Origin: Lineolata rhizophorae
Taxonomy: Eukaryota > Ascomycota > Dothideomycetes > Lineolatales > Lineolataceae
DNA length: 64,000 bases
Assembly: GCA_010093515.1 (NCBI GenBank)
Contig: MU001689.1
Span: forward strand, 303,502 to 367,501
Direction: 5' to 3'
In this document: positions 14,699 through 18,344 of the stretch, one piece after another
Layout: every line of letters begins with the position of its first letter
How positions within the stretch are numbered: position 1 is the first letter of the stretch
Notes under the pieces: generated by a model
Seen by the model: only the letters and a program-made list of their open reading frames with translations
What the model was told of the DNA's origin: nothing
Databases searched by the model: none
Position numbers and translations under genes: made by a program

Positions 14699-15096
14699 TC
14701 AAACCATGCTTTTGTGGAACCGTCCCTGGGTCTGCGTCCTGCTCTTACGAGTTCGGAGAAACACGGCTACCGCGCCAACGATAACACCGAGGAAAAAGAA
14801 CTTCTGCATCATGCTCAGCCCCTCTTCCGACATGGCCACCGCTGCTCCTCCCTCCAGCTCTGGCGCAATGTCACTACCGTACTCCGGCGACTTGGGTGTC
14901 TCCGGTGTCGTGATCGTTAAGTCCAATTCGTCTCCTTCGCGAGCAGGCTCTGAGGAGCCGACGATATCTTGTGGGGAGTCAGAAATCAGGGCATAAAGAC
15001 CAACCATCACACAACCGCTGAGCCGCAAGAGGCAAGGGGAAAAGGAGACAGTAGCCGGCCCCGGCTGTTTTCTCTACAGCTCCTCGTGCGTCACAC
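14699..15096 (-). other. cypB: Alternative 3' intron and tail exon of the cyclophilin (membrane form)
   Basis: After the HEEL stop the same reading frame stays open for about 120 codons, to 14699. A candidate intron at 15096-14968 (129 bases, GTGTGA...CACAAG, CTGAC near the 3' end) starts 23 bases before the end of the HEEL reading frame and removes the retrieval signal together with its stop. Joining exon 15312-15097 to 14967-14699 keeps the frame and gives 292 residues in all. The new tail has an acidic Ser/Thr/Pro-rich linker, then one hydrophobic span (KFFFLGVIVGAVAVFL) followed by RTRKSR, and ends about 20 residues later. This reads as a type I membrane anchor with a short basic cytosolic end. 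Alternatively the frame from the ATG at 15007 could be a separate 102-codon gene, but there is little room for a promoter. The splice sites are inferred, not shown. Confidence 0.6.
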
Positions 15097-15953
15097 CTTC
15101 TGATTCCATAGGCAGCTCGCCGCTTTTTGCGATTTTGACCGTCTTGAACGGTCGGTCGCCACCACCCTTCTTCACGTTTTGAACCGCATCCACCACGTCA
15201 TAACCCTCGAGAACCTCTCCAAACACGACGTGGCGGCCATCTAGCCACGACGTGATGGCAGTCGTGATGAAAAACTGGCTACCGTTGGTGTCCTTCCCCG
15301 AGTTCGCCATACCTGAAACACAGCATTGTCAATTCTTGTTACGTCGCAAACGTGTCCGTGTCGAACATACTTAGAATGCCCTTCTTGCTGTGCCGTAGCT
15401 TGAAGTTCTCGTCAGGGAACTTCTGGCCGTAGATGGACTTCCCGCCAGTGCCGTCGCCGTTGGTGAAATCACCACCTTGGATCATGAAATCCTTAATGAC
15501 GCGGTGGAAGGTGGAGCCCTCATATCCGAAACCCTTCTCGCCAGTAGCCAGAGCACTAATTAAGTAGATTTAGCTGTATGTTCTAAAGCGCCATGGTGGA
15601 TGTGTTTTACCGGAAGTTCTCTGCAGTCTTTGTTCAGTTAGCAATCGCCCAAAAGTGACTCCATACTGTGCACGCAAATAGTAGAGCGCATTACCTTAGG
15701 AACAGTTCTGCCATACAGCCCTATCACAATTCGCCCCATCGGTTCATCATCATGAGTGATGTCAAAGTACACCTATGCGCCCCGTCGATTTAGCGACCCG
15801 ACTTTGACGTCAAACGAAGTCAGCCTTAGAAATCCGTACCTTGTTGGTGACTTTGGGTCCTCTTGGTTGCTGTTCTTCTGCCTGCGCAAGATAGATCGAG
15901 GCGACCGACAGAACGAGCAACAGCGAAAGCAGGAAGCGCTTGAACGATGCCAT
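15074..15953 (-). CDS. cypB: ER cyclophilin B, peptidyl-prolyl cis-trans isomerase (HEEL form)
   Basis: Five exons on the minus strand: 15953-15840, 15772-15695, 15627-15611, 15555-15371, 15312-15074, giving 210 residues. The first ~25 residues are a signal peptide. The cyclophilin domain follows: [75 protein letters not shown] and the drug-site tryptophan in [11 protein letters not shown]. The catalytic Arg, Phe and Met of the [11 protein letters not shown] segment are present. The protein ends in HEEL, a KDEL-type retrieval signal, so it should act on folding proteins in the ER lumen. Exon 3 is only 17 bases. The gene is divergent from uS13m, with 254 bases between the starts. A second, spliced 3' end is possible (see the next entry). 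Confidence 0.93.
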
Positions 15954-18246: not shown

Positions 18247-18341
18247 GGTTGTATAGTGTAGGGGTTAGCACGAGGGATTCTGATGCCTCTTCTCATGAAT
18301 CAGAAACTTCCCTAAACCCCGGTTCGAATCCGGGTACGACC
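18247..18341 (+). tRNA. tRNA-Gln (anticodon CUG) with a 24-base intron
   Basis: The acceptor stem GGTTGTA pairs with TACGACC (one G-T pair). D-arm stem GTGT/GCAC, anticodon stem AGGGA/TCCCT, and T-arm CCCGG-TTCGAAT-CCGGG all fold. The anticodon CTG is at 18280-18282. The intron, 18284-18307, lies one base 3' of the anticodon, the standard eukaryotic position. Its ATCAGAA can pair with TTCTGAT around the anticodon, as the splicing endonuclease requires. A run of T starts shortly after the 3' end (18348 onward), serving as a polymerase III terminator. The mature length is 71 before CCA addition. Confidence 0.95.
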
Positions 18342-18344
18342 TTA

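Follow-up and report, generated by a model that had tools for sequence, protein, structure and literature searches.

Does a single fungal gene for a cyclophilin of the endoplasmic reticulum (ER) encode both a soluble enzyme and a membrane-anchored one, with the fate of one intron deciding between them? The question arises from a Lineolata rhizophorae (Dothideomycetes) contig, of which we analyzed a stretch of 64,000 nucleotides, here called the window. On its minus strand lies a cyclophilin gene whose reading frame ends with HEEL, a KDEL-type ER-retrieval signal, while a potential intron takes in this ending and leads to a second one with a transmembrane segment. We put at roughly four in five the probability that this one gene, CypB, yields a soluble ER enzyme when the intron is kept and a type I membrane enzyme when it is removed.

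Anatomy of the gene and its last intron

The gene starts with an ATG at 15953 (Table 1). Position 15312, the upper bound in the original prediction, is where the last exon shared by both forms begins, not the gene. The genomic span is 1255 bases, and 880 bases separate the ATG from the TAG after HEEL. Residues 40-195 match the cyclophilin-type prolyl isomerase domain PF00160 (E 1.3e-50), and an N-terminal signal peptide is predicted from hydrophobic residues 7-25 (KD19, the hydropathy peak over 19 residues, 2.13; AlphaFold2 helix 2-27). A search of solved structures gave 161 distinct sequences, and the best of the 60 listed is a cyclophilin B chain that matches residues 10-207 and ends short of the transmembrane segment. 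Judged by these sequence features the gene is the fungal ER cyclophilin CypB, with predicted prolyl isomerase activity. A CYPB with HEEL was reportedly described in Aspergillus niger by Derkx and Madrid in 2001.

Table 1. Features of the CypB gene in the window (positions are those of the window).
Feature	Position	Strand	Remarks
Exon 1: ATG, signal peptide, start of mature protein	15840..15953	-	frame agrees with database entry P0001
Exon 2: cyclophilin domain	15695..15772	-	
Exon 3: 17-nt micro-exon, TAENFR	15611..15627	-	
Exon 4: cyclophilin domain	15371..15555	-	
Exon 5: end of cyclophilin domain, common to both forms	15097..15312	-	
Intron 5: 129 nt, GTGTGA...CTGAC...CACAAG; retention gives the HEEL form, removal the membrane form	14968..15096	-	junction conserved in relatives
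HEEL retrieval codons (15088-15077) and TAG stop (15076-15074), inside intron 5	15074..15088	-	CAC GAG GAG CTG TAG
CTGAC, branch-like site 10 nt upstream of the intron end	14978..14982	-	compared with the consensus as generally known
Exon 6: acidic linker, transmembrane segment, basic tail, TGA stop	14699..14967	-	
Transmembrane segment, residues 256-276 of the 292-aa form	14750..14812	-	KD19 2.07; AlphaFold2 helix 256-278
C-terminal HKSMV, the Lineolata version of a conserved [EDQ]K[ST][ILMV][AV]-like end	14702..14716	-	

Intron 5 runs from GT at 15096-15095 to AG at 14969-14968, and its 129 nt are 3 x 43, such that joining 15097 to 14967 keeps the frame, in phase 1, across an Asp codon (G|AT). 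When the intron is retained the protein reads ...SEGVTHEEL before the TAG and has 210 aa, with signal peptide, cyclophilin domain and KDEL-type end. When it is spliced the KDEL-type end is gone, and the protein continues as ...SEDIVGSSEPAREGDELDLT...MMQKFFFLGVIVGAVAVFLRTRKSRTQTQGRFHKSMV to a TGA, giving 292 aa in which an acidic linker leads to one transmembrane segment and a short basic tail; this form is identical to the L. rhizophorae database entry P0001 over its full length (100%). The arrangement originally proposed, a frame closed by HEEL and TAG, a GT-AG intron of 129 bases and an in-frame tail with a transmembrane span, is thus confirmed on the DNA. Among the gene's five donors, that of intron 5, GTGTGA, alone has G at +3; the other four have A. 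No RNA structure was detected over intron 5 that would explain the choice of end (z +0.80; 156 of 200 shuffles fold equally well or better).

The hydropathy of the tail peaks at 2.07 over 19 residues (MMQKFFFLGVIVGAVAVFL), near the value of the signal peptide, and the spliced form combines a signal peptide, a cyclophilin domain and one C-terminal transmembrane segment, an architecture from which we infer type I topology. The AlphaFold2 model of this form has a mean pLDDT of 62, with the linker at low confidence and a helix over residues 256-278; as the well-known cyclophilin core is also given low confidence, we use from the model the tail helix alone. In its own frame the tail scores +0.053 per codon; the two remaining sense frames give -0.745 and -0.423. 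None of 2000 base shuffles reached its score, a rough measure given that its reference is two other open reading frames of the window and that shuffles may contain stops. The tail frame is more than chance. A search of the L. rhizophorae genome with the tail listed a single copy and no second one.

Elsewhere in the window, positions 18247-18342 on the plus strand hold an Rfam tRNA match (96 bases, 52.8 bits) that ARAGORN, with the settings used, did not report, and which is perhaps an intron-bearing tRNA gene.

Both ends among homologues

Three protein searches, two of which each gave the best 120 of 7993 scored proteins while the third, made with the tail only, yielded 30 of 70 candidates with E no higher than 1, together retrieved 211 distinct proteins. 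Classed by what comes after an SGEL-type anchor, they comprise 96 proteins with a long tail, 89 with a short KDEL-like end and 26 with neither, counts that depend on the queries and are not frequencies. The 26 are other or multi-domain cyclophilins and partial records; a long-tail protein of Aureobasidium pullulans (P0058) also fell among them, its anchor lying outside the range of the rule. A KD19 of at least 1.6 is found in 95 of the 96 long tails, P0091 being the exception, and every one of the 30 tail-only matches belongs to the long class, P0029 at E 0.099 only. The 89 short ends are HAEL (44), HVEL (15), RAEL (10), RGEL (9), HEEL (3) and others (8). HAEL, HVEL, RAEL and RGEL are putative retrieval signals.

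As read from the lineages of the named genera, the long forms come from five classes of Pezizomycotina: Dothideomycetes (Lineolata), Sordariomycetes (Monosporascus), Eurotiomycetes (Exophiala, Arachnomyces), Lecanoromycetes (Usnea) and Leotiomycetes (Botrytis). The short forms include Scedosporium (Sordariomycetes) and Lepraria (Lecanoromycetes), and many of the named entries are gene predictions. The lack of conservation that would have spoken against a two-ended gene did not appear, as the proteins of relatives keep both the KDEL-like ends and the tail. The accompanying statement that fungal ER cyclophilins are normally soluble calls for a qualification: in many Pezizomycotina the database model is the tailed form.

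Conservation along the long form is uneven. Among 42 of the 96 long forms that were aligned, the commonest residue has on average a share of 0.89 in the core, which falls to 0.19 in the linker, rises to 0.52 in the transmembrane segment, drops to 0.24 directly behind it and reaches 0.71 over the last five residues. All 42 have Lys 259, where the helix begins. The last five residues fit [EDQ]K[ST][ILMV][AV] in 65 of the 96 long forms; HKSMV of Lineolata comes near this pattern but, beginning with H, falls outside it. A variable linker followed by conserved elements is the picture expected of a tether, and the conserved C-terminal end may be a sorting signal. Compared with viral contigs, the alignment of 42 long forms gave 4 loci, and an alignment of the tail gave 14 pattern matches, none of these 14 a confirmed relative.

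Outside the Ascomycota there is P0002, from the basidiomycete Steccherinum ochraceum, in which a CypB-like domain is followed by a Pro/Ser/Thr-rich linker, a hydrophobic stretch and then a second cyclophilin. Going by this one fused gene model, the tailed form may be older than the Pezizomycotina.

The junction between core and tail carries a signature of its own. With a phase-1 intron that starts G|GT, the short form is bound to have Gly at the junction, and the long form an amino acid encoded by a G-initial codon. Of the 89 short forms, 83 have Gly there and the other 6 vary in length immediately ahead of their end; of the 96 long forms, 95 have G, A, V, D or E, the exception being P0028, which has an insertion. 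The columns upstream of the junction are also rich in Glu, which makes the long-form half of this signature weak by itself and the near-constant Gly of the short forms the stronger half. Taken together, the junction residues fit a phase-1 splice site. Gly is followed by Ile in 75 of the 89 short forms, which, if the Gly codon is GGT, would give a donor GTAT plus A, C or T. Such a donor lacks the generally preferred G at +5, which is a sign of weakness. Lineolata has Val (GTG) in place of this Ile, and a G at +5.

The same junction bears on whether the tail is a separate downstream gene, or the splice an artefact of annotation. Gene predictors can misjoin exons, and in three Sordariomycete CypB models (P0129, P0130 and P0144) the membrane tail runs directly into a Trm112 domain (PF03966), probably by fusion of neighbouring genes. 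Against this, the long forms share one point at which the CypB core gives way to the tail, and all but one of them have a G-starting codon there; moreover, P0029 holds core and tail on a single contig of 1013 bases; we regard a separate gene or an artefact as very improbable. PF03966 had no match in the L. rhizophorae genome, which for a domain of 40 positions, searched with introns ignored, does not imply its absence.

Read-through of the HEEL stop codon, put forward as a second route to the tail, is unsupported. The frame is indeed open from the TAG to the TGA at 14701-14699, but the stretch between the stop and the acceptor scores -0.274 per codon in the read-through frame, and another frame scores higher (-0.002; the third, -0.525). 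Moreover, long forms join directly at the junction, and a KDEL-like word is found near it in 2 of the 96 long tails, P0092 and P0125. The word in P0092, FKGELD, sits well downstream of the junction and looks unrelated. We consider it extremely improbable that the tail is reached in this way. The other case, the long-form model P0125 of Hypoxylon sp. FL1857, reads EGSHEEH at the junction, as if a donor just 3' of the HEE codons had been used.

Identical cores and the balance between the two forms

In an all-against-all comparison of 96 long-form and 89 short-form cores, four long/short pairs proved identical over 202 of 202 core residues and diverged at the predicted junction: P0029/P0068, P0025 (Pyrenophora teres)/P0152, P0074/P0203 (both Pyrenophora tritici-repentis) and P0044/P0172 (Alternaria conjuncta and A. 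incomplexa). In a fifth pair, P0046/P0177 from Aureobasidium melanogenum, 199 of 202 residues agree. P0074 also has a 9-residue insert at the site of an upstream intron. As the short form closest to Lineolata among the matches listed agrees at 162 of 202 residues, Lineolata itself is without such a pair.

The pair P0029/P0068, both from source lgn, comes nearest to transcript evidence; P0029 lies on one contig of 1013 bases and P0068 on two, the longest of 1220 bases. Both contain complete frames on contigs shorter than the genomic span of the window gene, and we infer that these contigs are assembled transcripts, although for the short form P0068 the length argument alone is insufficient, given that only 880 bases lie between ATG and TAG in the window gene. 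Relatives have long and short forms on identical cores, one pair on such transcript-like contigs, and a single locus may give rise to two mRNAs. Within the same genera, long forms start their tails at two in-frame places a few codons apart (P0044 and P0074 versus P0010 and P0025), which suggests a second acceptor or differing annotation.

These pairs also bear on a division by lineage, in which each species would make mainly one form and the database models simply disagree. Most entries among the matches listed do show one form per species. However, the Lineolata DNA has both ends intact, P. tritici-repentis and A. melanogenum each have both forms in the database, and the cores of P0029 and P0068 are identical, and we find such a division distinctly unlikely.

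We have established the anatomy and exact frames of the gene, the conservation of both ends and of the junction, and the presence of both ends on identical cores in relatives. Conserved ends and identical-core pairs support the original prediction of one gene with a soluble HEEL form and a membrane form, and both mRNAs are probably made in Lineolata as well. Two further ideas of that prediction, that the splice is regulated as a switch and that the enzyme may be sent along the secretory path, are hypotheses. We suggest the following scheme. The last intron begins just upstream of the retrieval codons. If it is kept, translation would end at the TAG and give the soluble prolyl isomerase, which its HEEL would hold in the ER by KDEL-type retrieval. 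If it is removed, HEEL and its stop would be lost and the product would be a membrane cyclophilin whose catalytic domain faces the lumen. If the last donor is used incompletely, part of the mRNA would keep the intron, and early polyadenylation inside the intron would be another route to the HEEL mRNA.

The soluble form is probably the commoner of the two. In the short-form query, among the best 120 of 7993 scored proteins, rows with jgi or lgn as their only source comprise 50 short forms and 1 long, while rows from other sources comprise 39 short and 20 long, 10 of the 120 being neither (Fisher p 1.2e-5, for rows that are not independent, were found with a short form as query, and may reflect a preference of gene predictors for the spliced form). 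On the meaning we attach to these tags, the jgi/lgn-only rows would be mostly transcripts; if so, the HEEL mRNA is the main product, and the rarity of the long form among them suggests that it may be a minor one.

The same 50 to 1 ratio would also be expected if both mRNAs exist but only the HEEL form works, the spliced form being rare, functionless splicing noise, a reading with which the G at +3 of the intron 5 donor also agrees. Noise, however, would not preserve a transmembrane segment and a C-terminal end across five classes beyond a variable linker, and we think this reading unlikely.

Comparison with known systems

Fungal cyclophilins of Group G (CypB) have a signal peptide that directs them to the ER (PMC1618848), and they share with the retained-intron form the cyclophilin domain, the signal peptide and the KDEL-type end; the part of that account available to us mentions no membrane-anchored second end. 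In architecture, with no common descent of the tail implied, the spliced form resembles two cyclophilins of S. cerevisiae: Cpr4, a secretory-pathway cyclophilin that has a putative transmembrane domain and belongs to Group H, reported in Saccharomycotina only, and the membrane-associated Cpr8 (PMC1618848). Unlike the spliced form, both are products of separate genes. Another membrane-associated cyclophilin is Drosophila NinaA, which complexes with rhodopsin and is required for rhodopsin to leave the ER (PMC3433705). NinaA differs in being a dedicated animal gene, for which the part of the source consulted mentions no soluble partner, and a common descent of the tail is not implied. By analogy with NinaA, the membrane form of CypB may fold or escort client proteins at the membrane.

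Choosing the location of a protein by splicing is not new in fungi. Conserved alternative splicing gives two functional proteins in the case of the peroxisomal isoforms of fungal PGK and GAPDH and of SKI7/HBS1 (PMC4207609, PMC3597508), which differ from CypB in the genes and compartments concerned. In plants, intron retention and exon skipping of rice OsCYP19-4 give isoforms at different locations (PMC4964526), but this is a plant gene, and the portion of the report considered describes no choice between a retrieval signal and a membrane anchor. A genome-wide splicing study of Sclerotinia sclerotiorum includes isoforms that gain or lose transmembrane domains; in its main text the words 'cyclophilin' and 'isomerase' are absent. 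The open-access literature gave no account of two alternative ends of a fungal CypB, which is weak evidence as most subscription journals were outside its scope. The kind of event is thus known, as fungal dual-location splicing. What we did not find described in that literature is its occurrence in this gene, the pair of signals involved and the way they overlap a splice site.

Alternative splicing that yields two functional proteins is described as much rarer in fungi than in animals (PMC3597508). If our reading is true, CypB would be a widespread example of it in a core folding enzyme, simple to read out as soluble and retrieved versus membrane-anchored, and with an unusual overlap of a protein-sorting signal and a splice signal. 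We point out that deletion of CypB in a species with the tail would then remove two proteins, of which a HEEL-ending cDNA would restore one.

The closest parallel is perhaps PTC7 of S. cerevisiae, in which one intron, kept or removed, sets the location of the protein, one form residing at the nuclear envelope (PMC3597508). The arrangement is reversed in that the membrane form of PTC7 arises when the intron is retained and that of CypB when it is spliced, and PTC7 splicing is reported as conserved only in most Saccharomycetaceae, in the section of that paper considered. For both SKI7/HBS1 and PTC7, splice forms have turned into gene pairs (PMC3597508). As a tentative extension, which we hold to be possible but doubtful, CypB may be an old switch, present in at least five classes of Pezizomycotina, between a retrieved soluble enzyme and a membrane-anchored escort; in most relatives the Gly-Ile codons just ahead of the retrieval signal would also serve as a weak 5' splice site (GTAT plus A, C or T), and splice efficiency, for instance under ER stress, would set the ratio of the two. 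Yeasts, in which soluble and membrane cyclophilins of the ER are separate, would then have the subfunctionalised version of this pair, as reported for SKI7/HBS1 and PTC7, which would give the yeast membrane cyclophilins a testable origin.
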